A DNA stretch of 43,278 bases from Prosthecobacter sp. (GTDB taxonomy: Bacteria; Verrucomicrobiota; Verrucomicrobiia; Verrucomicrobiales; Verrucomicrobiaceae): NCBI RefSeq assembly GCF_014879935.1, contig NZ_JACSRD010000193.1, forward strand, positions 1-43,278. The letters run 5' to 3'. The position numbers were made by a program, and so were the translations under genes. The notes under the pieces are model-generated. The model searched no databases and was not told the origin of the DNA. It saw nothing but the letters and a program-made list of their open reading frames with translations. Numbering within the stretch: position 1 is the first letter of the stretch; each line of letters starts with the position of its first letter. Positions 12,527 to 33,436 of the stretch are shown here, one piece after another.

Positions 12527-12555
12527 TTTAGCGTATCACGACCTTTGGAACTTCA

Positions 12556-12586
12556 GCGGACGCCCAGATCGGGCGTCCGCTTTTTT
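12556..12586 (+). terminator. Intrinsic terminator after the DUF1080 gene
   Basis: A perfect 10-bp stem, GCGGACGCCC / GGGCGTCCGC, with loop AGATC is followed directly by six T residues (12581-12586). It lies 30 bases after the stop of the DUF1080 gene and is a textbook Rho-independent terminator on the plus strand. Confidence 0.92.
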
Positions 12587-12592
12587 GTCCCT

Positions 12593-12706
12593 TCATGGCT
12601 GGGTGTAGCCTTGATGCCGCCGCCTGAACTCCTTCGGCGTCATGCCGGTGCGTTTGCGGAATTGCTGGGTGAAGGCGCTTTGATCGCAGAAGGCCGAGCT
12701 CGCCAT
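12593..12706 (-). pseudogene. 3' fragment of an AraC-type regulator gene
   Basis: The minus strand encodes only the last ~36 residues of an AraC-type DNA-binding domain, AFCDQSAFTQQFRKRTGM and onward to FRRRHQG, then YTQP and a stop at 12593. About 69 bases here match the end of the complete AraC gene at 29.3 kb with only two differences. The rest of the gene is missing. Upstream of about 12695 the sequence is unrelated and belongs to another remnant in a different frame. This is a decayed or recombined paralogue. Confidence 0.8.
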
Positions 12707-13244
12707 GGCGGAGTTGATCATCAGGCGCGGTGATGAGGGCTGAGAAGGTGGATGCGAGCTGGAGGTCGCCAGAAGCCTTCACGAAGTGCGGGATGACCTC
12801 ATCGAGCCCGCCGGTGAAGGCGGGGCCAGCGGCGTCTTCGGTGAGCTGTGCCTCGACGCGGAGCACGAGGCTGGAGAGGGGCACCATGCTCTCGGCGAGC
12901 GCGGCGATGAAGTCGGGTGATGGCTTGCCCCAGTTTAATGGCTCCGGGATGACGATGACGGCGTTTTCCGCGTCGCGCAGGCCTTTGAGGATCATCTGCC
13001 AGTCGATGGGTTGCGCAGGCCAGCCGGCGTATTCGTCACGCTCGGCGGGATCAAGGCGGACGAGCAAAACCTCGTCCTTCTTTGCGGACGGATCAGGCGT
13101 GGTGAGCTTTTCACGCGAGTTCGCCACGAGGAAGTCGAGGAACAACTCGTCCACCTTCTGAACGCGGCCGGCGCTTTGCTCACGATCCAGTCACCACGCG
13201 AGCGGGGCGAGGGCGATGAGCCAGATGAGGATACGGAGAAGCAT
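12707..13244 (-). pseudogene. Broken gene for a membrane-anchored protein (possibly CHASE2-like)
   Basis: Starting at ATG 13244 the minus strand encodes a hydrophobic start, MLLRILIWLIALAPLAW, then an in-frame TGA. The same frame stays open afterwards (LDREQSAGRVQKVDELFLDF) and runs through VLLVRLDPAERDEYAGWP into the AraC remnant. The signal-anchor plus VRLDP strand vaguely resembles extracellular CHASE2-like sensor domains, but this is weak. The gene seems to be interrupted by a nonsense codon and cut at its 3' side. A GTG at 13154 could start a shorter protein, but its end would be a meaningless read-through of the AraC remnant. It lies 34 bases downstream of the giant gene. Confidence 0.55.
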
Positions 13245-13278: not shown

Positions 13279-16200
13279 TCAGTTGTCGGTCACGCGGAGG
13301 CGGATGAAACCAGGCGTGGTGGAGTCTTCCATCGAGGGATGCACACGGAAGGTCACGACCTCGGTGATGCCATCGCCGGTGGGCGCGGGCGGGCCGATCT
13401 GCTCCAGGCTGACGCCGGGAATATCCTCCCAACTGGCGAGGGTGGTAGAACGCTGGAGCTGGTAGGTGAGCGTGCCTGGAATCATGCGACGGCGGTAGCT
13501 GATGGTGAGGTAGTGCTCGCCGTCCGAGGGATTGGTGGCGCTGGTGGTGGCAGGGAGGAGGGAGTTCGTGGCGGTGGTGGGGCTGGCTCCGAGGGCATAT
13601 TCGAGGAGGTTCGAGATGCCGTCGCCGTCATAGTCGTCGGTGGGGCCGGTGTTGCCGCCGGTCATGCCGGATCCAGAGCTCCATTCACCGAAGGGTGCGT
13701 AACGGCTGACCGCGATGGTGTAGGCCTGCGTGGTGGTGCCATCACCTGCGGTGACGAGGAGATTCACGGTGGCGGTGGCTCCAGGGAAGGCGATCGGATC
13801 ACTGGCGGCACCCGATGCAACTGGCGTGCCATTGACCATGACGCTGGCCGTGGGATGCGAGGTGACCGGCGTGACCGTGAAGGAGGTGGCGGCATTCGGC
13901 ACGCCGGCAGTGATATTGAACGTGGTGCTGGCGAAGGCTGGATAGACCGCGCCGGGACTGACGGAAAGCCCCGAGAGCGTGGCATCCGTGCTGATGGTGC
14001 TAAAGGTGAGGCTGGCACCATTTGTATCACCGCCAGGATTGGTTCCGGTGAGGCGGAAATGGTAGGTGGTGCCGGGAAGGAGCCCGGTGAGCGTGACGCT
14101 GACGTTTTGCGCCGTGCTGCCATAGGCGGGGGCAAGGGTTACCGCGGTTGTGGTGCCGTAGGCATTGGTGACCCCATGCTGGAAGCTCGCGCTGGTCAGC
14201 GTGCCGTTGGGATTCACGATGCCGTTGAGCGTGGCGGTGGTGGTCCCGATGGCGGTGGCAGCGAGGGTGGTGACCACGGGCGCGGGGGCATTGAGGTAAC
14301 GGACCACCATCTGCGAGGACTGATGGTAGTCATCGCCAGGCTGCCAGGCATACAGGGTGATCACCCCAGGTCCTGTGACAGTGACGCGGCTGCCATTGAG
14401 CGTGGCCGGTCCATCGACGATGTAGCTGACAGGAAGTCCGCTGCTGGAGGTGGCTCCGAGGACGACGGCATCTCCCACAGGCGTATCCCCCGGACCCGGG
14501 AAATCGACCGTCTGCACCGGGGCGAGGCCGGGAAGCACGAGGCCAGGAGTGAAGGCATCCCGCCAGGCAAGGCCGATGCCGCCACGCGGGCCAAACCCAC
14601 AGCTCCAGAGAGAGCCATCCGATGAGGAAACGAGGGTGCTGTAGTTGCTGGCGAAAGCGCGGCCCCAGCCATCGGCCGTGCCGAGCTGGAAGGGCGTGTT
14701 GCGGCTGCTGGTGCCCCCGTCGCCGAGCTGGCCGTAGAAATTGTAGCCCCAGCTCCAGAGGGTGCGGTCCGCGCGGATGGCGACGGTGTGAAGCAGACCT
14801 GCGTTCACCTCCTGCCAGTAGGTGCCTGGGGCGAGTTGCACCGGAGCGGTCCGGTTGGTGAACGAGCCATCGCCGAGCTGGCCGGATGAGTTGCGGCCCC
14901 AGACCCAGAGCGTGCCATCAGTCCGGGTTGCGATGTTATGGTAGCCACCAGCGGAAACCTTGGCCCATGTGGTGGTGGTGCCAATTTGGACCGGGGTGAA
15001 CCGGCTGGTGGTGGTACCATCACCGAGCTGGCCGTAGAAATTGTATCCCCAGGCCCAAAGGGTGCCATCCTGCTTGCGGGCAAGGATGTGATAGGCCCCA
15101 CTGACGACATCAGCCCAGTCGGCGGCGGTACCGACCTGTGCAGGGAGGAGCTGATTCGCGGAACTGGCCACGCCATTGCCCATTTGGCCGTCGAAATTAT
15201 AACCCCAGGCCCACAAGGTGCCATCCGCACGCATTGCAATCGTATGGTAGCGCCCGGTGGAGACTTTCAGCCAGGTCGTCCCATTGCCCACCTGTACCGG
15301 CGCGTTTCGCTGGTCTGTGGTGCCATCGCCCAACTGGCCGTAAAAGTTGTAGCCCCAGGTCCATAGCGTGCCATCCGTTCGAACGGCGGCGGTGTGGAAT
15401 CCACCTGCGGCCATGCTGAGCCATTGGGTGCCAGGCTGGGGCTGGAAGGGAACCGGGCGCTGGGCTGAATCACTCAAACCATTTCCAAGCTGGCCGTTGC
15501 CATTGTTACCAAAGGTCCACAGGGTGCCGTCTGGTCGCATGATGACACCATGACCATCCCCGACCGCCGCATCGGCCACCGGGCCGAACTGCACCGCCAC
15601 CGGTTTGAGAAGATGCCCGCGGTAGCCGAGCTGGCCGCTCGAATTATCTCCCCAGCTCCAGAGCGTGCCATCAGCCTTCATAGCGACATTGGCGGACTGC
15701 CCGGGAGCGATGATCTGCCAGCCATCCGCGGCACCGACCTGCACGGGCACATTGCCTGCGATGGTTGTCTGATTGTAACCCTGGCCGAGCTGGCCGTTGA
15801 GATTACGTCCCCAAGCCCAGAGGGTGCCGCCGGTGCGCACGGCCAGCACATGATCGGCACCGGCACGCACCTGCTGCCAGTTCGTGGCGGAGCCCACTTG
15901 GACGGGGGAGGTGCGGTTGAGCAGCGTGCCGTCTCCGATCTGGCCGTAAGCGTTGCTTCCCCAGGCCCAAAGAGTGCCGTCAGCACGGATGGCGGCAGAG
16001 AAATAGTAGCCAGCGGTAAAGTTGGTGCAGTTGGCCATGGCCGTGATCTGCACCGGGGAGGTGGCATCGGTGGTGCTGCCATTGCCGATCTGGCCAGAGC
16101 CATTGTCTCCAAAGGCCCAGAAGGTGCCGTCCTGTCTGCGAGCGAGGCTATGGTAGGCACCAGCGGCGACGGCAGACCAAGTGTTCAAGGTCCCGACCTG

Positions 16201-19200
16201 GAGCGGGGAGCTGTTGGCCGTGGTGCCTGTGGTTCCCTGGCCCAGCTGGCCGTCACCGTTGCGTCCCCAGGCCCACAGAGTTCCGTCTGTTTTGATGGCG
16301 AGGCTATGGTAAAGCCCCGCCACGGCCATCTGCCAGTCCGTGGCGGTGCCGATCTGGACGAACGAGGTGCGGTCCGTCGTGGTTCCGTCACCGATCTGAC
16401 CATAAAAGTTGTCACCAGCAGCCCAGAGGGTGCCATTGCTGCGCACCGCCACGCTGTGGTAGCCGCCGTTGCTGACTTGGACCCAATCTGTGGCGGTTCC
16501 GACCTGCACCGGCACCCACTGGGTGGATGTGTTGCCAAGACCGAGCTGACCGTCAATGTTTTCACCCCAGGCCCAGAGGGTGCCATCCGCCCGAAGGGCG
16601 ATGACCGAGCTGGGGCCTTTGCTGCTGCTGATCTGCGTGTAGGCAGGGGTAGAGAGCGCCACAAATGTCTGCGTGACCGGTTTGGCAGGTCCGTAGGCAC
16701 TTCCATCGCCAGTTTGCGAGGCTCGAATCGTTACCGTGCCGGGCGTGCCGGTCAACGTAACCGTGTTTCCTGACAAAGTGGCCGAGGCAGCACCTGCGGT
16801 GATCTCGTAACTGACCGGCAGACCGCTGCTGGCCGTGGCATTGAGGGCAAAGGGAGCGTCTGTGGTGCGTTTCGCCGGGATGGGTGGGAAGATGATTGAC
16901 TGGGTGACGAGCTCGAGAGTGATGTCATTGCCGTCCCCGCCCGCGTAAGTGATCTGGAAAAGATACGACTGGCCACCAAAGCTGACGCTGACGGTGCCCC
17001 CCTCCGGCAGACCGCCAAAGGCACCCCGGACGGGCGTGAAGCCCGTGTTGTTCACCAAGGTGAGAACGGCCCCCTGTGTGGGTGCAAAGCCAAGCGTGAG
17101 GCTGAGGGGCCGGCCGGAGGCGTCAAAGCCATCGCTGACCACAGGGACATCGTCCGGGGTGTCAAACGTGGCATTGGAAGAAGTCGTGAAAGTCCGGTTC
17201 GGGCTGGCAAACACCCCGGCGGCTGTCGTGGCGACGAGGCGGTAGTGGTAGGTCTGATAAGGCTGAAGGTCCACCAAGGGTGCGAAGACCGTTTCGGCCG
17301 CTGTGCCAGAGCTGAAGTTCACCGCCGGGGTGCTGTTCCCATAGGCAGACGTTTCTCCATACTCGAACTGCACCGTGCCACTGTGCGTTTCCCCGGTGAT
17401 CGAGCCGTTCAAGGTGGCTGTGGATTCCGTGATCAGGCCGGCCGGTGAGGCGAGCACCACCGGCGGCTGGCGCAGGCGGAAGAAGGTGGTGCCATTGCCA
17501 CCGTAGAGATAACCATCGGCTCCCAAAGCGAGGCCCTGCGCCGGAGAGACCCCGTCCTGACGGCCGCTGAAGGCGTACGACGAGGTCACCGAGCCATCGG
17601 GAGCGACGCGGAACACGGTGCCCAGACCGTAGGCACCTCCAGCCGAGGTCACACCATAGAAACAGCCATCCGGTGCAGCCTGCAAACCACCCACCGGGCC
17701 GGAGCCGGGCTGATCGCCCGTATTGCCCGTAAAGCTGGCAAGCGTCGTGAGCCCCCCTGCGGTGGTGATCCGAAACACGGTGCCGACGCTCGAAAGTCCT
17801 CCCGCGTTCGTGGTGCCGTAGATCGCCCCATCCGCCCCCTGAACCAGGAGGCCGGACGGGCTGCTGCCGAGCGTGGTGCCAAGCGTGCCGGAGAAGGTCG
17901 CCAGCGTGGTCAATCCGCCTGCCGGGGTGAGGCGGAAGAACGTGCCGAACCCCGTGGAGCCGCCTGCGGTGGTCGTGCCGTAATAGTTGCCATCCGATGC
18001 GAGCAGCAGCGGTGCCTGCGGGCTGGAGCCCAAATTGGCCCCGGTCGTGCCGGTGAAGTTGATCAGCGTGGTTTGCACTCCGGCAGGAGTCATCCGGAAA
18101 ACGGTTCCCAAACCTCCTGTGCCCCCTGTACTGGTCGTGCCGAGGTAATTTCCATCAGCTCCCAAGATGAGCGGTGCCTGCGGACCAGAGCCGGGATTGG
18201 CCCCGGAGTTCCCCGTGAAGCTGATGAGGGTCGTCAGGACACCCGCAGGAGTGAGCTTGAAGACAGACCCGAGGTTGATCGCACCACCTGCGGCGGTGGT
18301 GCCGTAGAAGTTGCCGTCAGGTCCGGCGAGAAGGCCGGCACGGGCATTCAGAGCCGTGGTGCCGGAAACGGGACTCAGCGTGGCGAGGCGGGCAGGTGCC
18401 TCACCAGGCAGTCCGGCCTGCAAAGTGCCGACTCCCAATGCACCACCACCACCCACCATGGCACCAAAGAACCTGCCATCGCCACCCTGGGCCAGGCGGC
18501 CGAGATTGGGCGCGGCACTGAGATTGACGAGGGTGGTGAAAAGTCCCTGCGGAGTGATTTTGAAGATCGTGCCGTTGTTGTTCAGGCCCCCGCCATTGGT
18601 GGTGCCATACAAGGCACCGTCGGTTCCTTCGACCAGTTCACCCTGAGGACTCGATCCCAAAAGCGTGCCGGTGCTGCCGGTGAAGCTGATTAAGGTCGTC
18701 AGCAGGCCTTCGGGGGTGATGGAGAAGACGGTGCCGAGGTTGTTTGCTCCTCCCGTTTGTGTGGTGCCGTAGAGCGTGCCATCCGCGAGCTGTAGGAGCG
18801 CCCCTTTCGGGCTGCTGCCCAAGGCAGAACCCGTCGTGCCGCTGAAGGAAACCAGCGAGGTAAAGCCCGCGCCCAAAGTGACACGGAACACCGTTCCGAG
18901 ATTGTTCGCCCCACCCGTGGCGGTGGTGCCGTAAAGATGGCCGTCAGCGCCTTGAACCAGGCTTCCGGTGGGCGTCGTGCCCGGGAAGGTTCCCGTGGTG
19001 CCCGTGAACTGTACCAAGGTGGTGAGGGCTCCGGCAGGGGTGAGCCGGAAAATGGTGCCAAAGCCTCCAGCACCTCCTGTGGCCGTGGTTCCATAGAAGT
19101 TCCCGTCATTGGCGAGCACGAGACTGGCCCGTGGGCTGGAGCCCAAAGCCGTGCCGGTCGTCCCGGTGAAGTTGACCAGGGTGGTGAGCACGCCGGAGGT

Positions 19201-22200
19201 CGTCACCTTGAACACCGTGCCGGAGGAACTGCTGCCTCCACCCTGCGTCACCCCATACAAACTGCCATCCGGGCCCAGCGTGAGACCACAGGAAGGGTCT
19301 GCCCCGCGTGGGATGCCGGTATTGTTAAACCTCACAACCACCGTCACCTGGCCATCAGGCGTCAAGCGGAAGACCGTGCCGTAATTGGAAGTGGTGCCGC
19401 CGTCGTTGGTGGCGCCGTAGAAGTTGCCGTCTCCAGCCTGCACCAGCCTGCACTGCGGCAGACTGCCGCCGCCGAACCCGTTTCCAATGCTGTAAAGGTT
19501 TGCCAGAGTGGTTAGTGAACCACCCTGCGAGACACGGAAAATGGTTCCTGCGCTGCCGTAAGTGCCACCTGAGTTCGTGGTGCCATAGAGCTGACCATCT
19601 GGTGCTTTGTAGAGCCCGGCCAGCGGCGCGGTGCCGGTGTTGATGAACTGGGCCTGGGGCTGGAGCACCGTCGTGGACACCGGAAGCGTGGTGATGACCT
19701 GGGCATCTCCCTGCGTGGTGCCCGTGGCATTCGTGGCCACCAGCCGCACATGGTAGGTGGTGCCAGGCAGCAGGCCGGTGATCGTCGAGTTCACCGCCAC
19801 ATTGGTGACGCCACCGCCTGCATTCTGCGTGGCCGTCTGCGAGCCGTAAGCCGTGGTGGTGCCGTATTCAAAATACCAATCCGCGCTGCTTCCTAGCGGA
19901 TTGACCGTGCCATCGAGCGTGATGCTCGTCTGGCCTGCGTTCACCCACGAACCGGTGATCGCCAGCGGAGCCCCTGGCGTGGCAAAGGACTGCACCGCCG
20001 AGTAGAAGGCGCCCTGCGACGTCACCGTGACCATGCGCCAATAGTAAACCGCCCCTGATTGGAGACCGGTCAGGCCCGCATTGACGGCCACCGGCACCGA
20101 ACCTGCGGCAATGTTCTGCGGTGCCGTCTGCGATCCAAACGACGACGAGAGGCCGTACTGGAAGTACACACTGGCGGCATCCTGGTTTGGCAGCACGGTC
20201 CCGTTCAGCGTGGCCGAGGTGGCGGCCAATCCACTGACTGAGACGGCCTGGATGGCAGGCTGCTGATGCACGCGGAAGATCGTCGAGCCATTGCCACCGT
20301 ACAAGTAGCCATCCGCTCCGATAAGCAGCCGGAGCGCATCTGAGAAGGAACTGCTGCCATTCAGATTGGGCGATCCACCGTCATTGTTCGTGCCAAAGGC
20401 ATACAGACTCTGGAAGGAGCCGGAGGCGTTTACGCGGAATACCGTGCCAAGGCCGAAGAAGCCTCCAGAACTGGTCGTGCCGTAAAAATAGCCGTCTGGC
20501 GCTTCCCGGAGAGTCGCATGCGGGGTGGCTCCTGGAGAAGCCCCCGCGTTTCCAGTGAACTGCACGAGCGAGGTGAAGGTGCCCGATGGCAAGGCCACCC
20601 GGTAAACCGTGCCCGACCCGGTGCCGCCTCCTGTCGTGGTCCCGTAAAGATGCCCATCACTACCCTGCACCAGACTCGTGCTCGGCGTAGAGCCGGGGAA
20701 GGCTCCGCCACTGCCGGTGAAGGTCACCAGCGAGGTAAAGGTGCCATCGGGTGCCACGCGGTAAACGGTGCCAGAACCGGTACCACCCCCCGTGGTGGTG
20801 CCGTAGAAATTCCCGTCGCTGGCGAGCAACAGGTTTGAGTTCGGACTGCTGCCGAGATAAGCACCCGTCGTGCCGGTAAATTGAACCAGATTGGTGAATG
20901 TGCCGCTCTTTGAAATTTTGAACACCGTTCCAAAACCGCCCGTGCCACCGTTTTGGGTCGTGCCCCAGAGATCACCACTGCCATCCTCGACAAGCCGCGT
21001 CTGCGGTGAGGCCCCCGGCACCGCCCCGGTGGTGCCAGTGAAGGACACGAGGGAGGTGAAAATCCCTCCTGTGGTGATTTTGAAGACCGTACCATTCCCC
21101 CCGCCCGTTCCGCCGCTGGAAGTGACCCCGAAGAGGTCTGAATCGCTGGCCTGGATCATGCCGTGAATGATGGTCGATCCCGGGAACAAGCCTGTGGTGC
21201 TCGTGAGCGTGGCAAGCACCGTCTTGGTGCCGGAGGGGTCGATCTGGAAGATTTGCCCGAAAGAGGTCTCCGTCGGCATGGAGCCATAGAGATTGCCATC
21301 GCTGCCCTGGAGGAGGTAAGGCCCTGCAAAGTGGTTTGAGGTGAAACTGGTCAACTGGCTGAGCGTGCCCGCTGGCGTCATCTTGACCAGGGCACCCAGT
21401 CCCGCGGCACCGAAAGACTGACCCGCATAAAAGTTATCATCGCTGCCGAGGATCGTATTGCGGAACATCGGCGGGCTGATGAAGAAGCTGTAAATGCGGC
21501 TGAAGACAGGCGTGCCAGTGGAAGGAGTAAGCTTGATCACCGAGCCGCGGACCTGTGAACTGCCCCCGCCGTTGCAGGTCGCATAAAAGCTGCCGTCACT
21601 GTGCAGCGTGAACGCCCCGAACGGACTCGCTCCATCAGCCGTGGAGGAGAGACTGCGGATCGTGGTGAGCACCCCGGCGGTCGTCACCTTGAAAAGCGTG
21701 CCGACGTTGTTCGTGCCGCCCGTGTTGGTCATGCCGTAGAGCGCCCCGTCCGTGGCCCACTGCACGAGAGCGCTTTGAGGATTGGTGCCCAGATTGGCCC
21801 CGGTGGTCCCGGTGAAGCTGAGCAGGCTCGTGAAGGTGCCGGCGGTGGTGACTTTGAAGACGGTCCCGAAATTGCCAGCCCCGCCCACATTGGTCGTTCC
21901 ATAAAGCGCACCATCCGATGCCTGCACGAGCGCGGCGAGCGGCGCTGAACCCAGCGTGGCCCCGGTGGTGCCCGTGAAGCTTTTCAAGGAGGTGAATGTG
22001 CCGCTCGTGGTCACCTTGAAGATGGTGCCGAAGCCGCCGCCATTGCCACCGGTGGATGTCACGCCGTAGAGGTTGCCATCAGCGGCCTGGATGAGCCCGG
22101 CCTGGCAGGAGGAACCCAGGAAGGAACCCGAGGTGCCGGAAAAATTCACCAGCACAGTGATCACGCCGGAGGATGTCATGCGGAAGATCGTTCCGCTGCC

Positions 22201-25200
22201 GGTTCCGTTCGCTGACGTGGTGCCGTAGAAATGCCCGTCGAGCGCCTGGATTAACGGTGCCCGCGGAGCAGTGCCCGTCGCCGTGGTGAGATGAGCCAGC
22301 GTGGTCAGCGTGCCTGATGGCGTCATGCGGAACACGGTCCCAAGATTGTTTGCGCCGCCGGAGGTCGTGGTGCCGTAGAAATTGCCGTCACTGGCCAGGA
22401 TGAGCCCGGCATTCGGTGCCATGCCGTTGTAGCCATAGAAGTTTGCCAGCGTCGTCACCACGCCTGCGGTGGTGATCTTGAAGATGGCCCCCTGATTGCT
22501 GGCCCCGCCGGAAACCGTCGTGCCATACAAAGCTCCGTCCGGCCCCACCACGAGTTGCGCACGCGGACTCTGCCCGGGCTGCAAAGTCTGCGGTGTCATC
22601 GGTTCGACGACGGTCAGCACGCTGGTGGGATTCACCACATCAAAGGCGGCGCTGTCCCCCGCATGCCCCACGCCGTCATTCACGGAGAGCACCACGCTGG
22701 TGTCTGTGTTGAAAGCTGTCACCTGGCCTGACCAGACTCCGTTGATGAAGCCGTTCACATTCGTGGGAGAGATCACCACGCCGCCGCCAGTGCCCGCCGC
22801 CGTCACGGCTGGCGCAGCGCTATAGCTGGTCAGCACATTGTTTGCCAGATCGTAGGCCGTGACCGACACATTGAACGGCACACCTTTCGTCTGGGGGGAC
22901 GAAATCGCCGCGAAGCCGAAGTGATGCACATCATTGTCGCTGACCGAGACCGTCGTGCCAGCCCCCGCATACCCCGCTGCACTGGCCGAGACCGAGACTG
23001 AGGCCGAACCATCGGAAAGCGAATTCTCCACCGCCACCGCGTTAAACGTCGTCGAAGAAGTGCCGCTGGCGATGGTCACCGTGGCGGGCACGGTGAGGCG
23101 GGAGACGGTGTCGGAGTTGAGCGTCACCACCAGGTCCGCAGCCACGGCACCCGAGGCGGATACGGTGCCCGTGACGGTCGATCCCTCAGTGATGGTTCCG
23201 GGCAAAAACAATGCCAGCGAGAGTGTCTCGTTGTCGAGCACGCTGAGGCTGCCAGTGGCATTCACCCATCCGGGAAGCTGCGCGGTGATCGTGGTCACCT
23301 GGCTGCCATCAATCGCGGCATCATCCACGACCGTCACAGGAAAGGTCACGCTCGTCCCGCCGGCGGGCAGTGTGACCGTCGCAGGCACCGTCGCCGCCGT
23401 GGGATCGCTGCTGGACAGGGTAAAGACCAGTAGCCCGGCAGGCGGATGCGAGACCGAAAGTGTGGCCGTGACCGGCGCATCCCCCTCCGCCGCGCTCGGT
23501 GGCAGCGTCAGGTTCATCGTGCCGGTCACATCAAACGGATTGCTGACACCCGACGAAGTCCCGCTTTCGGCCCGAAAACGCATCTGGGAGGCCGTCTGTA
23601 GCACCGTCATGCTGCCAGACCAGACGCCCGCCGCGAAGCTGCCGGACGCGGTCGGCGTGATGCTGACGGGGAACACCGCTGCCGGGAAAGGCAACACGAG
23701 GCCGCTGTTCACCGTGCCGATGCTGTTGTTGTTTTTCGTCCAATCTGCCGCAGTTTGGCTGTCCACACCACCCGTTCGCAGATAGGTGTGCAGGCTGCTG
23801 CTCGGCGGGGTGATGGAGGCACCCGTCCAATGCTCCGCCGGGATTGTCACCGGTGAAGTAATCGCAGAAGCCAGCAATGCGTCAGCAGACATGAAATCCA
23901 CCAGATTGCCCGAGGCATCCCGCACCAGCACGGCGATGGGCGAGCCCGGCCCGGTCGTCCAGTTCAGATTCACCCCAGCGTTGAAGTTCGGGAAAGTGCC
24001 TGGTGCCGTCCCGTACTCCGTCACACGAAAAATCTGTCCTGGTGCGCAACTGGCACCCGCAGGAATCGTCATGCTTTTTGAACTCGTCCCCCCGGTGTCA
24101 TAATCATAAAAATGCAGCGTCCAGCCGCCGATGTTCACCGTGCTGCCGCCGATGTTGGTGAACTCCACCGCATCGGGCGTGTCCGGGTTCACCTCGGTGA
24201 TCACAATGCCCGGATGGGCCGCATTCGCCACATAACCGCTCAAATTGGCTGTCCCGCTATAGCTTGTCACCGTGTTACCGCCCGCATCACGAGCGGTCAC
24301 GGTGGCATCGACATTCGCTCCTCGGCTGCGGCTTGCCTGCGTGTCCCAGGCAAAGCTGGCAAGCGAGCCTGTCGTGACATTGAACGCATTGCTCGCGCCG
24401 GTTTTCCCGGCATTCGTCGCTGTCAGCACCGCGGCAGGGTCAAAGGTGTTCACCGTGACATTCCCCGTCCATACACCGGACGTAAACGCTCCGGTCGTGG
24501 TGGGCGTGATCGTCAATGCACCGCCGGTGCCTGCGGCGGAAAGCGTCGCCGGTGAGGTGTAGCTGGCGATGGTGACCTCATTCACGTCCTTCGCCGTGAT
24601 GGTCACGCTGAAGGGAACACCACGCGTCTGAGTCGTGCCGATGGCATTCCAGACAAAATGATGCAGATCATTGTCCAGCACGATCGTGTTCGCATTGGCA
24701 CCCGTGAACCCGGATGCGCCCACGGCCACATTCACGATGGCACTGCCATCCGTGAGGGTGTTGTTCGGCGCGGTGAGCGTGAAGGTGGCGGAGGTCGATC
24801 CGGCGGGGATGGTCACCGTGGCCGGCACGGTAAGACGTGCGGTGGTATCTGACACGGGTGTCACGACCAGCGGCGCGGGCAGGGTTCCTGAAATGGAGAC
24901 TGTCGCCGTGCCGGAACCGCCCTCCGTGACCGTGGCAGGCAGGCTGATGGCGAGATTGGTGTTCTCATTGTCGAGCACATCCATGTCCGCCGTGTCCCCC
25001 GTCCAGCCAGCCACGCTGGCGCTGATGGTGGCGCTTTGCAGGCCGTCGATTTTCGTGTCATTGACGATCTGGATCGCAAACGTCGCGGAGGATTGCCCGG
25101 CGGGGATCACCACACCACCCGGCACCATCACGGCCGTGGGTTCACTGCTGGAAAGCCCCACTGTCACAGCAACCGTTGGCGTGATGCTGAGAGACACGGT

Positions 25201-28167
25201 GCCCTGGACCGAGCCGACTCCCTCGGCGGCACTGGCAGGCGTGGTGAGAGTGATCACCGCCGTGCCGTCGTTATCCTGCACCGCCATGGCTCCCCCTGCA
25301 CTGGCGTATCCTGCGCTGCTCGCTGAGATCACCGCCACGCGAGTTCCGTCCTGCACCGCGTCATCGATCACGGTGACGTCAAAGATCGCGCTCGTCTGCC
25401 CTGACAGCACCGTCACGGAGGCTGGCACCGTTGCCTCGCCGGGGTTTGACGAACTCAAGCTGACCACCGTGTCTGCCACGGCCGCAGCAGGCAGGGTCAC
25501 AGTCCCCTGCCCTGCGAGCACGCCCGCGCCTTCTGTCACTGAGCCTGGCACCGTCATACGAAGCACCGGAGGTGGCGGCGTGGTCGGATAGCTGTTGAAA
25601 TCACTGGTCACAAAGCCTCCCGGCACCCCCAGACCACGCGAGAGGCCGATCAAGCCGTCCGTGGCCGCAATGCCAAGGCAGGTGATGCGGATTCTTCCGT
25701 CCGTGAAAAGCTCGATCTGGAAATTGTTCGAGTCGGTCCCGGCAGCCTGCGGAATGCCCTGGTAGGTCACCGCCACACGATCACCGAGCTGCCGCCAGGA
25801 GACCGTGCCACCTCCACTGGCTGGATTGAGATCATCAAAAAGCGCCGAGACCCGTGGCCGGGCAAAGTGATTTACCAGCGACTCGGCGGAAAGCGTGTCG
25901 CTCGTGCCAAACATCAGGTTTCCATTGCTGCCGACGAAGAATGACGAATACGGCGTGCCATACAGGCTCACCGTCTGCCCCCCCGAAGGCGTGACCGTGG
26001 CGAGGTCATTGTCAAACAGCGTCAAATTCGTGCCACCCGTCGGATCTGTCGGAAATGTGGTCACGCCGGTGCTGCGCAGAACGGAGTAAAAGCTGTCGGA
26101 GCCATCCGGCGTGAAGAGCCAGCTCTGATTGTCCGTGTCATTGTTGGAGGTAAACAGCTCCGTGAAGTGATCCACCTGCCCCACCGCCAGGCTCACGCCG
26201 CGGGTGAAAGAAACGCCGCTGGTCGTGTTCGTGAAAACGGCCGAGCCCGCATGCACCGCCGCCGGGAGAGCATTCACCGTGTCATTGAAGGTGAGCGAGA
26301 CCGTCGTCGAGGCTCCAGCCGCCAGCGAGCCCTCCGCAGGGGAGACACTGATCCAGGAGGCCCCCGGCGCCGCCGTCCAGCTCAGCGGCGTGGTCGCATC
26401 CGTGTTGGTGAGCGTGTAGGTTTGCAGGGTGGGAGTGAAAGGACCGCCAGCAGGGCCTTTTGCCGCCATGATCACGCTGGGAGAGACAGTCAGATCATCC
26501 AGCATCAAAAGCGCCTTGTGTACGTTCAGCCTGCCGCCGGTCACGGTGATGCCGGTCATCGCGGGCGTCACATCCACCGAGGCCATGATGACGTCCTTGA
26601 TCTCAAGGTGGGTGAGGGAAGGTTTGAACGCCTTGAGCAGCGCACAAGCCCCCGAGACATGCGGCGTGGCCATTGAGGTGCCGCTCAGATTCTGGTATAA
26701 TCCGGCGGGCTGCGCACTGTAGATCTCGCTGCCCGGCGCCCCGAGGTCCACCGTGGTAAGGCCATAACTGGAAAAGGATGATTTGTCGTCCGTACGCGTC
26801 GTGGATGCCACCGCGACAACGCACGGCGAATCGTAATTCGAAGGGTAAAAGCCACCCAGATCGTTGTTCGAGTTACTGTTCCCCGCCGCCGCCACAAACA
26901 GGATGCCCGCCGCGTGAGACGCATCCAAAGCATCTTTGAATGCCTGGTTGTAGCCACCGCCTCCCCAGGAGTTCGAGGTCAAATGCACCCCGATGCTCGT
27001 CCCATAGGCCACCGCCTCCGCCGCGTCCGAGATGGCCCCGCTGCCACCCGAGTTCAGGAACTTCAGCGGAATCAGGGAAACCGTCCAGCACACCCCTGCC
27101 ACCCCCTGGCCGTTGTTCCCCGCGCCACCGATCGTGCCCGCGCAATGCGTGCCGTGATACTGGTCGTCCATCGCATTGTTGTCATTGTTCACAAAATCCC
27201 AGCCAAGGGTGTCATCAATGAACCCGTTGCCGTCGTCATCGATCCCGTTTCCGGCGATTTCATTCGGGTTGGTCCACATGTTGGCCGCCAGGTCGGGATG
27301 CGTGTGGTCAATGCCAGTGTCTATCACCCCCACCTTCACCGTGGCACTGCCCGTGTGCATGTCCCAGGCCTCCGGCGCGTCGATGTCCGCGTCCACCGTG
27401 CCGCCCGCCTGTCCCGTGTTGTGCATGCCCCACAGGTTGCCAAAGCTGGTGTCGTTTGGCACCACCGAAGCGTGGGCGATGAAGTCCATATCTGTATATC
27501 GAATCAGCCCCTCGAGCCGGCCCAAGGCCTCCCGCGCCCTCGTCACCGTGTCCAGGTCGGGGTCAGGATACGCCACCAGCCACACCCCGGAGGCAGGCAT
27601 CTTCCGGCGCACCGTCGCCCCCAGGGCCTTCAACTGCTCCTCCAGGGCGGCACCGTTCGTTTTAGCATCCTTCACCGTCACCATCACATGATCAGCCACC
27701 ATCGCCGTCTGGTTCACCAGTTCGCGCACGCCGCCCTCCTCGATGAAGTCATCCTCCACCCTCAGCAGCGGGTACTTGAACGTGTCATCCCGCACGAGGC
27801 GCAGGCGGCGGATCACCGGCCTGCCTCCAAACTCCGCCTTCTCCTCCCGCTCCGCCAGCACCGGGGCTTTGGCGTAGCGGTCGTCCATCTTGGCTGCGAC
27901 GGGATGAGCACCTCCCCGTGAGTTGTGCTGGCCATCGTTCTGGCCTGCCTCCAATGCTTCGGAAGGCTTTCCGCCGCCTCCGGAGCCTGAAAGGGAGGCA
28001 GGTGGTGCCACCGCCGCTTTTTCGGCACCTGCAACGGCCTCCGCTGGCGGCTTGACCCCCAGATCCTGCGGTTTTTGCCCGCGAATGAGCACAAAGAACA
28101 GCAAGAGCAGCATCAGCCCACCAAGGGCAATGGCGGATTTGGAGATAACAGAGGCACTTCGTTTCAT
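13279..28167 (-). CDS. Giant subtilase with GloVer, RCC1, Calx-beta and Fn3 repeats
   Basis: A single uninterrupted gene of 4962 codons. An N-terminal hydrophobic segment (about 11-28) serves as signal or anchor. A propeptide-like region leads to a peptidase S8 domain (about 270-545) with a complete triad: D283 (VIDTGID), H338 (HGTHCAG), S498 (GTSMATPH), and oxyanion N430. Then, by approximate residue: a BACON-like domain (560-660), three Calx-beta repeats (866-1170), a lamin-tail-like domain (1326-1380), two more Calx-beta (1551-1740), 15 GloVer repeats (1868-2635), two Fn3-like domains, 14 GloVer repeats (2850-3568), Fn3 (3570-3660), two sandwich domains, 14 RCC1 repeats (3848-4543), an Ig-like and an Fn3-like domain, a cadherin-like domain (4728-4826), a Ca-binding-like [17 protein letters not shown] segment and a C-terminal domain. 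It is probably a cell-surface adhesin or protease. No PEP-CTERM, LPXTG or autotransporter barrel is visible. Confidence 0.93.
14540..16625 (-). repeat. Fourteen RCC1 repeats inside the giant gene
   Basis: Fourteen units of about 50 residues carry the RCC1 core (D/N)GTLWAWG-N-GQ(L/I)G-G. Variants include [14 protein letters not shown] and LWSCGFG in the last unit. RCC1 propellers have seven blades, so fourteen units would make two complete propellers. DNA identity between neighbouring units is visible but not perfect, so these are old duplications. Confidence 0.88.
17465..19620 (-). repeat. GloVer repeat block 2 (about 14 units)
   Basis: Units of about 54 residues have the pattern L-(x)4-DG-(x)-(L/F)YGTT-(x)-GG-(x)-(N/G)(x)GT(V/I)F(R/K)(I/V/L)TP-(x)-G-(x)3-TL(V/I)-FTG. 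The last unit is shortened to [16 protein letters not shown]. This is the GloVer tandem repeat, known in Verrucomicrobia and Gloeobacter and predicted to form beta-propellers. Degenerate units occur, such as the one with [11 protein letters not shown]. Confidence 0.85.
20265..22565 (-). repeat. GloVer repeat block 1 (about 15 units)
   Basis: Same repeat family as the block at 17.5-19.6 kb, also ending in a shortened unit ([16 protein letters not shown]) followed by Fn3-like domains. The matching block ends suggest the propeller-plus-Fn3 module was duplicated as a whole. Units 7-9 (for example [22 protein letters not shown]) are the most divergent. Confidence 0.85.
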
Positions 28168-28280
28168 GGTCGGAGGAGGTTGAAAGGATCTCAGGGCAGG
28201 AAATTCCGGTGGATTCGTTCTCGAAGACTTGTCGGGGCATCATGCAGCCATGTTGTCATGGTCGGCTGGAGAATGTATAG

Positions 28281-28320
28281 CAAAATACCCACTCTAACGC
28301 GTGGTTGTTACCAAAATACC
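28281..28320. promoter_or_regulatory. CAAAATACC direct repeats upstream of the giant gene
   Basis: The 291 bases between the giant gene (minus) and the aldo/keto reductase (plus) are more A+T-rich than their surroundings. CAAAATACC occurs at 28281-28289 and 28312-28320. The spacing is 31 bases, about three helical turns. The 40 bases around them include TATACAT on the minus strand, which could serve as a -10 element for the giant gene. Operator function is inferred; no other feature is apparent in this gap. Confidence 0.35.
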
Positions 28321-28445
28321 TTCCTGGTTCGCAATAAGATTTTAAGTCGTTTGCTAGATTCAATGCCGTTGCCGCCATCCTGCAGGCTTTTCGCAACGTG
28401 TCACCCACTGCCAATAATCATCCCAAGCTCCCGCCCAACCTCTCC

Positions 28446-28471
28446 TTCCGTCTGTTCCGTGTCTTCCGTAG
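28446..28471. repeat. TTCCG-type dispersed repeat at the reductase start
   Basis: A 26-base sequence with three TTCCGT units in a row. Its reverse complement matches the repeat at 30336-30361 at 23 of 26 positions. It overlaps the likely start codon of the aldo/keto reductase gene. Confidence 0.6.
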
Positions 28472-29313
28472 GCCCATCTTCATCGCTTCCCCGCATCGGC
28501 CTCGGCTGTGTCACCTTCGGTCGTGAGATCGACGATGCGGCATCCTTTGCGCTGCTCGATCACGCCTTCACACGCGGTGTCACGCACTTCGACACCGCCG
28601 CCGCTTATGGTGGTGGAGCTTCGGAAACGATCCTCGGCAAGTGGCTGGCTTCGCGAAAGCCGGAAGGCATCACCATCGCCACGAAGATGCTGCCGCCGTA
28701 TGACCGCATCGACATCACGGACAGTTTGCGACGTCTCGGTGTCGAGCAAATCGACCTGCTTTACCTGCATCAGTGGCATGAATCGGTCCCACAGGGCATC
28801 CCAGCACTCCAATCACTCCTCCACTCCAGCCGGATCAAGTCCCTCGGAGCCAGCAACGTCACGCTGGAGCAACTCCGCGCCCTCGGCCCACGCTTCCGCG
28901 TGATCCAAAACAACCACAACCTCGCTGTCCGCGATGTCACCGAGGCTTTGCGCGACTACTGCGCCTCGAACAACATCGCCATCGTGACTTACAGTCCGCT
29001 CGGAGCCGGTTTTTTGACCGGGAAGCATCAGAACGGCGTTCAGGCCGGTTCACGCTTCGAAATCATCCCAGGCCATCAGCAGGTCTATTTCCATGACACG
29101 GCCTATCAGCGCCTCGCTCGGCTCGAAGCCGTCGCGAAGCGCACCGGGCACTCGCAGGCGCATCTCGCGCTGACGTGGGCTTTGCATCAGCCGGGCATCG
29201 ACACCGTGCTCGTCGGTGGTCGGACGCCCGCGCATCTCGATCAAGCCTTCGCGGCGCTGGAGTTCGATGATCCGGCATTGCTGGCCGAGCTCACCCTTGA
29301 TGCCTTCTCCTGA
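28459..29313 (+). CDS. Aldo/keto reductase
   Basis: An NAD(P)H-dependent oxidoreductase of the AKR barrel family. The chosen GTG start gives 284 residues and puts the first strand LPRIGLGCVTFGREID at residue 10, as usual. An ATG at 28363 would add 32 residues that are Pro/Ser-rich and not AKR-like. The catalytic tetrad is recognisable: Asp and Tyr in FDTAAAYGGG, Lys in IATKM, His in LYLHQWHE. The late strand LGASN and the cofactor-binding end IDTVLVGGRTP are present. The substrate is not evident. Its 3' end overlaps the convergent AraC gene by 23 bases. The start lies in a dispersed repeat, so the N-terminus may have been remodelled. Confidence 0.88.
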   Translation: MSSVGPSSSLPRIGLGCVTFGREIDDAASFALLDHAFTRGVTHFDTAAAYGGGASETILGKWLASRKPEGITIATKMLPPYDRIDITDSLRRLGVEQIDLLYLHQWHESVPQGIPALQSLLHSSRIKSLGASNVTLEQLRALGPRFRVIQNNHNLAVRDVTEALRDYCASNNIAIVTYSPLGAGFLTGKHQNGVQAGSRFEIIPGHQQVYFHDTAYQRLARLEAVAKRTGHSQAHLALTWALHQPGIDTVLVGGRTPAHLDQAFAALEFDDPALLAELTLDAFS

Positions 29314-30762: not shown

Positions 30763-31452
30763 ATGAATACCGACCCCAAAAGCAAAAACGTCCCGCTTTA
30801 TGCGCAAGGCGGTTATGACCGTGAACTCAATTACAAATTGTGGTCCACCTACAAAAGCCGATTTAATGCGGCGGCACGCTTGCAGAAGAAGCACAACCTG
30901 TCGTCACGTGCCGTTGCCTTGCTGTCTGCCTATGTGGTGATCTTCTCACTCATTACGACGATGCTGCCGCAGTTCTCACAGGGTGCCACGGGACAAGCGA
31001 TCTTGTTTATCAGCTCGGCGTTGTCGATCATCATCCTTGTGGTCAGCCAGCTTGAGGCCTCACAGAACTACAGCGTGCGGTCCTACACTTACCATCAGAG
31101 CGGATTGGACGTGGCTGAACTTTACAAAAAGCTCCGAGCTCTCAAGACGCGTCACAAAGACAAGAACGCACCTGAATTCCTTGATGCTGTGGAAAAGTTA
31201 TCTCAAGACTACGACGACATTTTGCAACGGTCCGACAACCACGAGGACATCGACTTTGATGTCTTTCGTGCATCCAAGCCCGACTATGAAGATCACAAGC
31301 TGACGAAATCGCAGGTTCGCTGGATCAAAGTCTCGCTCGTTGTTCGGCAATACTCATTCTATTACCTATGCATGATGCTGCCGCCGGTTGTATTCGGATT
31401 GTTTGCTTGGCTGACTTGGCCTGACGCAGCGGCTACACAGCCGACGCCATAA
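30763..31452 (+). CDS. SLATT-domain membrane protein (orphan defence-type effector)
   Basis: This 229-residue protein has a charged N-terminus with the RLQKKHN helix. It then has two adjacent membrane helices (about 51-68 and 79-95), a long soluble helical region (96-190) and a third hydrophobic stretch (about 198-220). This is the shape of SLATT proteins (SMODS- and SLOG-associating 2TM effectors). In CBASS-like and reverse-transcriptase-linked defence systems these are thought to permeabilise the membrane when triggered. Here no nucleotidyltransferase, SLOG or reverse-transcriptase gene is adjacent. Upstream is a gene remnant and downstream, five bases after the stop, an insertion sequence. 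GC content is lower than in the neighbouring housekeeping genes, which suggests transfer. SLATT subfamily 5 is the likeliest assignment. Confidence 0.75.
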   Translation: MNTDPKSKNVPLYAQGGYDRELNYKLWSTYKSRFNAAARLQKKHNLSSRAVALLSAYVVIFSLITTMLPQFSQGATGQAILFISSALSIIILVVSQLEASQNYSVRSYTYHQSGLDVAELYKKLRALKTRHKDKNAPEFLDAVEKLSQDYDDILQRSDNHEDIDFDVFRASKPDYEDHKLTKSQVRWIKVSLVVRQYSFYYLCMMLPPVVFGLFAWLTWPDAAATQPTP

Positions 31453-32623: not shown

Positions 32624-33436
32624 ATGGGCAAAGTCATTGCAACGTTCTCAGAGAAGGCGAATCGGTTTTTCCCGCTCTACACGAAAGTAGAGCTAACGTT
32701 GCAGGAGCGTCGGAGGCTTCTTGGTAGCCCGCTTCGTTACTGTGTCGGGGGAAACTATATTTACTATCCCGCCAAGCATCCCGATTTGGACTCCGTGAGC
32801 CAGTTATGCTGGGCTCGCATCTATCCGGACGCTGCCTATGCACTACCTGCAGAGCTGTTCGATCCCCAGCCACCAGACTTCAATATTTTCGAGTTCTGCG
32901 CCAGCGAGGACTGTTCCGTGGGAGATCGTTACCTCAAGCGCCAGAAAGAAACCCCCAATGGAATGGTGGATGTCAGTCAGTTTTGCGGTCAGGAGTTATT
33001 TGACGCTGTTTCACAAAATCAGGAGGTGTTGTATGACCTGAAGAAGGACGATTTCGAGGCGCTATGCGCCGAGATTTTTGCCCGACGAGGTTTCAAGGTG
33101 GATTTGTTTCGGAGCACCAAAGATGACGGTATTGATTTCCTTGCTGTAGAGGATGGCGATGGTGATCCAACTGTCTTGGCCGTTCAGTGTAAGTTGCCGG
33201 ATAGCCCACCTGATGGTGGCAGACTACGGACTACCGGCGTTCCAGTGGTGCGTGAGATTTTTGGTGTTGCATGTGCCTTTGGCTATTCTGGTGCCGTCGC
33301 TATTTCAGCGAGCACTTTCAGCAGAGAGGCTCGCCAGTTCGCTAATTTACAGCCTGATCGCATCCAGCTTAGCGACATCACGACGTTGCAGAGTTGGATT
33401 CACCAGTATAGATGGAACCCTGACGAAGCTCCATGA
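32624..33436 (+). CDS. Mrr-like restriction endonuclease
   Basis: This 270-residue protein has an unrecognised N-terminal half (about 1-130). Its C-terminal PD-(D/E)XK domain is of the Mrr_cat type: FEALCAEIFARRGFKVDL (helix with the conserved Glu), DDGIDFLA (D171) and VQCK (Q188, K190), which supplies the QxK form of the motif. The downstream strand GAVAISASTFSREARQFA is also typical. Mrr nucleases cut modified or foreign DNA. There is no methyltransferase beside it, which fits a type IV-like enzyme. The gene is flanked by 35-bp direct repeats and follows an IS element. Target specificity cannot be inferred. Confidence 0.85.
   Translation: MGKVIATFSEKANRFFPLYTKVELTLQERRRLLGSPLRYCVGGNYIYYPAKHPDLDSVSQLCWARIYPDAAYALPAELFDPQPPDFNIFEFCASEDCSVGDRYLKRQKETPNGMVDVSQFCGQELFDAVSQNQEVLYDLKKDDFEALCAEIFARRGFKVDLFRSTKDDGIDFLAVEDGDGDPTVLAVQCKLPDSPPDGGRLRTTGVPVVREIFGVACAFGYSGAVAISASTFSREARQFANLQPDRIQLSDITTLQSWIHQYRWNPDEAP

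Follow-up and report, generated by a model that had tools for sequence, protein, structure and literature searches.

Deseasin MCP-01 is a multidomain secreted subtilase, RCC1 is a known propeller repeat, and type IX tails recur on many proteins of a genome. The GloVer repeat is held in NCBIfam as a choice-of-anchor tandem repeat (TIGR03803); the entry as printed gives neither fold nor function, and our literature searches found neither the TIGR03803 nor the GloVer family name, nor anything on GloVer structure. RCC1, S8, and M36 proteins appear as separate items in a report on Myxococcus vesicles (PMC4158809). We analyzed a 43,278-nucleotide stretch of Prosthecobacter sp. DNA (hereafter, the window) in which a single gene carries an S8 protease domain together with long GloVer and RCC1 arrays. 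The gene and its parts are as follows.

13279..28167 (-), whole gene, 4962 codons; open frame, with a matching architecture in locus L064
28084..28137 (-), N-terminal hydrophobic stretch, residues 11-28, signal-anchor-like, without an AxA site by our rule
27496..27705 (-), propeptide, residues 155-224, Fervidolysin_NPro-like (Pfam PF22148)
26575..27342 (-), S8 protease domain, residues 276-531 (Pfam PF00082, E 2e-53)
25558..26496 (-), BACON-like domain and the region after it, residues 558-870, kept across the S8/M36 head swap
24658..25560 (-), Ig-like repeats, residues 870-1170, with a LapA match (PF20579) at 1070-1163
23890..24222 (-), lamin-tail domain (LTD), residues 1316-1426 (PF00932, E 1.4e-9)
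20233..22620 (-), GloVer block 1, residues 1850-2645, 15 units (NCBIfam and our own repeat profile)
19678..20235 (-), fn3-like linker joining the GloVer blocks, residues 2645-2830 (Pfam)
17449..19695 (-), GloVer block 2, 14 units, predicted tandem propeller (AlphaFold2, Foldseek, VIA-align)
14488..16659 (-), RCC1 block, residues 3837-4560, 14 repeats (Pfam and motif count)
13702..13971 (-), cadherin-like domain, residues 4733-4822 (PF12733, E 4.6e-12)
13282..13680 (-), C-terminal domain (CTD), residues 4830-4962: a DxDGDG loop and helix, then an Ig-like beta-sandwich up to the stop codon

Domain searches of the translated product matched S8 and RCC1 in Pfam and GloVer in NCBIfam, as the initial annotation had expected, and the E-values of these matches exclude chance. 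The annotation's reading of the gene as a 4962-residue protein with a complete S8 triad also stands. The Peptidase S8 match scored 182 bits against a gathering cut-off of 21.8, and the motifs of the triad followed one another in order (D283, H338, S498), with an oxyanion asparagine at N430. The PDB sequence nearest to the S8 domain was deseasin MCP-01 (3vv3; 1.4e-101 over residues 237-557). The propeptide match was borderline, at 18.3 bits in the whole protein and 21.1 in a second scan, against a cut-off of 21. Besides S8, six kinds of domain exceeded their curated cut-offs (LTD, LapA, GloVer, fn3/phosphatase-N, RCC1, and cadherin-like), and BACON_2 fell below its own, short of the at least ten extracellular repeat kinds originally proposed. 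The LapA adhesin match was barely above threshold (28.7 versus 27 bits in a scan of residues 810-1856). Calx-beta spacers, also proposed, were not found by Pfam at E <= 1 in the whole protein or at E <= 5 in residues 810-1856.

The frame runs through 4962 codons without an internal stop. Its nearest relative among at least 80 loci, L064 of Verrucomicrobiaceae bacterium H5_VER2 (JABTUN010000001.1), lies on a 2.7-Mb contig and has a frame of 4990 codons, in which all 17 segments of the giant protein were recovered in the same order at 54%-96% identity (S8, 87%). A frame equally long was met in a genome of the same genus (G102), which is probably the same record as that of L064. Because L064 has the same architecture on so long a contig, we conclude that the architecture is real and not an assembly artefact. 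When the two genes were compared, dN/dS was 0.066 for the S8 segment and 0.089-0.406 for the remaining 11; the S8 ratio is the lowest of the 12 because dS is high there (1.259), dN being ordinary (0.083). The ratio suggests that the S8 domain is under purifying selection, an indirect sign of activity.

The genome neighborhood was dropped as a clue to orthology. Two of the 26 flanking frames matched L064, one of them (28075-29313) antisense and overlapping the start of the giant gene, and none of the 26 matched in the compared stretches of L065, L076, and L073.

Several other genes in the window were noted in passing. Directly downstream of the giant gene, frame 12528-13244 (-) has a stop at codon 18; within it, 12528-13154 shares 74% identity with L064 16542-17012 over 157 residues, and Pfam gave nothing for this part at E <= 0.001. 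A SLATT_5 gene at 30763-31452 (+) (PF18160, 3e-48) lies near a gene with an Mrr-type restriction endonuclease domain at 32624-33436 (+) (PF04471, 1.1e-20), a possible pair of defence genes. Another propeller protein is encoded at 37783-40206 (-), where WD40 repeats come after a cytochrome c domain of the planctomycete type (PSCyt1).

The GloVer match to TIGR03803 scored 1174.8 bits against a cut-off of 44 (E 0, 26 stretches). Our own repeat profile found 14 units in block 1; in block 2 it found 13, including a weak one (i-E 0.031). Each block also has a terminal half unit, which we assigned visually, for totals of 15 and 14, and so the 29 repeats of the initial annotation were recovered. Block 1 has 15 units in L064, L065, L073, and L076 as well, and the 14 units of block 2 are a multiple of seven. 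We scanned named genomes with an alignment of six arrays, which yielded at least 80 loci. Among 105 arrays in 90 frames (frames open at the locus end excluded; strong units, over 15 bits, counted), 46 had 6-8 units and 51 had 12-14, together 97 of the 105; four had 9-11 and four fewer than 6. Because the loci were selected for resemblance to arrays of 13-15 units, the upper peak could come from that choice; the lower peak, at 7 (37 arrays), could not. When weak terminal halves are counted, the peaks fall at 7-9 and 13-16. Some frames in the set look broken (L072, L082, L092, L101). In two loci, separate arrays of 7-8 units each stand evenly spaced in a row, five in L123 (5336-17929) and four in L128 (6215-13819).

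AlphaFold2 modeling of block 2 from 37 sequences gave a tandem propeller (pLDDT 86.6, pTM 0.81), and the top Foldseek matches of the model were propellers (best E 1.1e-17), including designed propellers, the BT4663 sensor domain, GH74, and virginiamycin B lyase. VIA-align placed model residues 20-390 on CylK (Z 31.0, 339 residues, rmsd 3.1) and residues 8-745 on virginiamycin B lyase (Z 31.2, 292 of 293 target residues, rmsd 2.4). Since the first range aligns alone and the second spans the model with just 292 residues, the model suggests that one ring is nested in the other, the outer ring being closed by an N-terminal strand; the number of blades here is deduced from alignment ranges rather than from coordinates. 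A sequence profile of GloVer arrays also matched PpgL (6igb, 1.3e-5). The assignment of GloVer repeats as propeller blades, and of block 2 as a tandem propeller, is thus a well-supported prediction, and block 1 may share the fold. Hence the initial proposal of several beta-propellers on one molecule gains support, both from the block 2 model and from the RCC1 block, which matches UVR8 over residues 4100-4442.

That block scored 375.5 bits against PF00415 (cut-off 21.7, E 9.9e-115, 13 stretches) and contains 14 motifs spaced 47-53 residues apart, the number first annotated. The same count was obtained for L064, L065, L076, and L105. Elsewhere, arrays of 14, 13, and 14 repeats were found in L184, 14 in L036 of the Prosthecobacter genome, 7 and 6 in L034, and 7 in L035; by our profile L037 (10, 11, and fragments) and L176 (4) depart from sevens. 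RCC1 arrays thus appear mostly in sevens, and the block of the giant protein would be expected to fold as two rings. Locus L037 (C145:28000-44000) of the Prosthecobacter genome encodes adjoining proteins, apparently tandem duplicates, that each run to some 1600 residues, match S8 and RCC1, and end in a CTD.

Relatives can differ at the N terminus. L065 keeps residues 558-1850, both GloVer blocks, the RCC1 block, and the CTD at 48%-70% identity (the cadherin-like domain was not found in it), and everything before residue 558 is replaced by an M36 fungalysin domain (E 1.6e-114). L076 retains both GloVer blocks, the RCC1 block, and the tail, and L073, whose frame is truncated at the contig end, retains the GloVer part; both have a kelch head. 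By these matches, the propeller body is constant among relatives and the head is exchanged, being S8, M36, or kelch. The region at residues 558-870 was itself matched in 56 of 288 genomes of the same order (E <= 1e-10), often in its BACON-like part only. Among the long proteins found through it, Pfam placed M36 heads on L174, L175, L179, and L184 and an S8 head on L176; L178, L180, and L181 have an M36-type motif, and the middle of the L177 chain contains a stretch resembling S8 (50% over 317 residues) that lacks a serine motif by our pattern. The Prosthecobacter genome also encodes an M36 giant of 5432 residues whose C terminus is related to that of the giant protein. Across 101 GloVer frames, protease motifs were seen in four: L064 (S8), L065 (M36), L103, and L119, the last two with pro-kumamolisin domains. 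GloVer arrays without a recognised protease include the kelch-headed L076 and L073 and, in the Prosthecobacter genome, C194 (no protease family) and C42 (no protease motif).

We next consider the other end of the chain. A search of the Prosthecobacter genome with residues 4823-4962 as a single sequence hit 37 places, self included, and a profile search gave at least 53 matches; the recurring segment is the last 120 residues of the chain. When 79 genomes of the phylum were sampled, 37 gave a match to the profile. Among 40 strong matches in loci of the Prosthecobacter genome, which were largely chosen by the CTD itself (giant gene excluded), the distance from the end of the match to the stop codon is at most 7 residues in 35, 16 in one, and 242-508 in four. 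The proteins that carry the domain differ in size and N terminus. No specific Pfam or NCBIfam family covers the CTD in the 51 copies scanned; NCBIfam Amuc_1099_fam touches 16 (best 2e-5) and Pfam TSP3_bac touches 8 (best 1.6e-6), and our literature search yielded nothing on such a C-terminal domain. AlphaFold2 predicted a small sandwich (pLDDT 91.3, pTM 0.80). A search for a fold relative gave only weak, Ig-like matches (best Z 6.8, none with a Foldseek E < 0.001), CBM21 sandwiches being among the many. In other genomes, 14 GloVer proteins end in the CTD, of which 13 are labeled verrucomicrobial; the end of the fourteenth, L088 (labeled Porticoccaceae), is nearly identical to that of L081, and L088 may be mislabeled. 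Several verrucomicrobial GloVer proteins gave no CTD match (for example, L068, L069, L115, and L123).

The CTD stands where a sorting tail would be, and this position suggests a sorting role. Known routes were compared with it. In Bacteroidota, the type IX tail TIGR04183 was over cut-off in all nine GloVer proteins tested (from 14 loci); a Nevskia protein, the tenth given to NCBIfam, had none. No TIGR04183 match at E <= 0.1 was obtained for any of the 51 CTDs, and comparison of the CTD profile with type IX tails gave no link (probability 0.1). SprA had no match in the Prosthecobacter genome or in the genomes of L064 and L065, with Flavihumibacter (G288) as positive control (2527.5 bits); the Prosthecobacter assembly is 97.3% complete, so the gene could lie in a gap. 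Type IX secretion of the giant protein was set aside, neither tail nor SprA having been found. A study of Poribacteria describes type IX-like tails without secretion genes (PMC3909097). PEP-CTERM sorting was likewise rejected: the genome has three exosortase matches (C40, C182, C114), yet no PEP-CTERM family was found in the NCBIfam scan of the giant protein, whose chain ends in FIRLRVTDN. That route may coexist with the CTD in this genome. An autotransporter (type V) was discarded too: Pfam matched no barrel family at E <= 1, and the C terminus is predicted as a small sandwich.

At its start, the giant protein has a hydrophobic stretch and then charged residues, without an AxA site, which looks like an uncleaved signal-anchor. 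An anchor-like N terminus was scored in 15 of 18 protease-bearing CTD or chassis proteins, three of which (L178, L179, L181) had the C terminus out of view, compared with 7 of 30 CTD proteins in which no protease was recognised (Fisher p 7e-5). The rule behind these counts was simple, was written after the pattern was noticed, was applied to many related sequences, and misjudges some plain signal peptides both ways; nine proteins in which no hydrophobic stretch was recognised were omitted, among them the protease L176. Within the Prosthecobacter genome the counts were 7 of 9 and 4 of 19 (p 0.010). Two proteins of that genome, L035 and L051, look anchored and have no S8 or M36 motif, yet they carry HExxH-type zinc sites and sub-threshold M12-type matches. 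Such a site is also present in L041, which has an ordinary signal peptide, and in L059, called anchored by the rule although its N terminus looks cleavable to us. In L103 and L119, the GloVer proteins with pro-kumamolisin heads, the signal peptide is of the ordinary, cleavable kind. The association of anchor-like N termini with protease heads is therefore a tendency, not a rule; it would fit a zymogen released by cleavage of its own propeptide.

On balance, we consider it somewhat probable that the giant protein is a secreted, surface-associated multi-propeller protease, made as a zymogen that stays tethered to the membrane until it cleaves its propeptide and so frees itself. The N-terminal hydrophobic stretch would export the chain and, probably remaining uncleaved, anchor the zymogen in the inner membrane. 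The S8 domain would mature by a cut between propeptide and catalytic domain, at about residues 225-240, and the same cut would activate the protease and at once free the rest of the chain from its anchor. The two GloVer blocks and the RCC1 block would each form two seven-bladed propellers in tandem, which makes about six rings, one possibly with an extra blade; our best guess is that the propellers keep a polymer or partner close to the protease. The Ig-like CTD may be a sorting, attachment, or capping end common to many proteins of the genome. The data are compatible with the protease cutting its own chain or releasing the giant protein, as was suggested at the outset.

The same features can be read differently. 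Most of the chain consists of repeat or spacer domains, LapA and cadherin-like matches are among them, and L076, L073, C194, and C42 carry GloVer arrays without a recognised protease; all this would suit an adhesin or matrix fibre that binds cells or surfaces through its propellers and Ig-like domains and needs the protease only for its own maturation and release, not for digesting outside substrates. We regard this as unlikely, because the head of L065 belongs to an unrelated protease class, M36, and those of the remoter L103 and L119 are of the pro-kumamolisin type, which suggests that proteolysis itself has been kept. A freely secreted scavenging protease, with propellers and CTD binding substrate and no sorting role for the CTD, would suit deseasin MCP-01 as the nearest solved protease, the CBM21 sandwiches among the weak CTD model matches, and the internal position of some CTD copies. 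It is less probable still: the near-terminal position of 35 of 40 strong CTD copies, on differing proteins, speaks against it, as does the place of the CTD, which is that of the type IX tail in the tested Bacteroidota GloVer proteins.

A fusion of separate genes by repeat misassembly, conceivable for a repeat-rich gene in an assembly of 286 contigs, is very improbable indeed given the 17 ordered segments of L064, much of which recur in L065 and L076, the frame without a stop, and dN/dS below 0.41 in all 12 segments.

The exchange of heads (one body bearing S8 or M36, the GloVer-RCC1 part bearing kelch, and remoter GloVer chains bearing a pro-kumamolisin type) shows a presumed binding body whose front end can be interchanged, which is useful for asking what that body binds. 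The CTD, in turn, is a concrete candidate for placing giant proteins in Verrucomicrobia without a detected type IX system. A wider and more doubtful possibility joins these points: the CTD would be an address tag of an undescribed surface-sorting route, serving Verrucomicrobiota as the type IX tail serves Bacteroidota, with the giant protein as one of its larger cargoes. The tag on GloVer proteins would then differ from one phylum to the other, and it is on such grounds that "choice-of-anchor" names are given. Protease cargoes would skip signal peptidase and release themselves from the membrane by cutting off the propeptide.

Compared with known systems, three things are new here: a fold for GloVer that can be tested, a head that is exchanged, and a candidate domain for sorting. 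The initial annotation did not include the exchanged head, the arrays in sevens, or the shared CTD. The type IX tail and the CTD both stand at the end of GloVer proteins; the CTD differs in having no sequence link to that tail, and SprA was not found in its genome. GH74 xyloglucanase, the BT4663 periplasmic sensor domain, and EML1 share a tandem-propeller arrangement like that predicted for block 2, at 10%-16% identity; no catalytic or sensor role is implied. Beyond what the TIGR03803 entry holds, the GloVer arrays examined here come mostly in sevens and one is a predicted tandem propeller; the preference for sevens and the block 2 model make the propeller assignment directly testable. RCC1/UVR8 propellers are likewise built of RCC1 repeats; the giant protein has two rings' worth in one bacterial chain, with no exchange-factor or light-sensing role implied. 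The M36 fungalysin giants (C165 of the Prosthecobacter genome and L174, L175, L178-L181, and L184) resemble it in having an N-terminal protease and a long Ig-like body, with the BACON-like domain in the five scanned and the CTD wherever the C terminus is in view; L184 also carries RCC1. They differ in their metalloprotease head and in having no GloVer in the stretches examined, L065 being the M36 protein with GloVer. Deseasin MCP-01 has a similar catalytic domain, whereas the S8 domain of the giant protein heads a chain with 43 GloVer and RCC1 units; the enzyme class is ordinary, its setting unusual.
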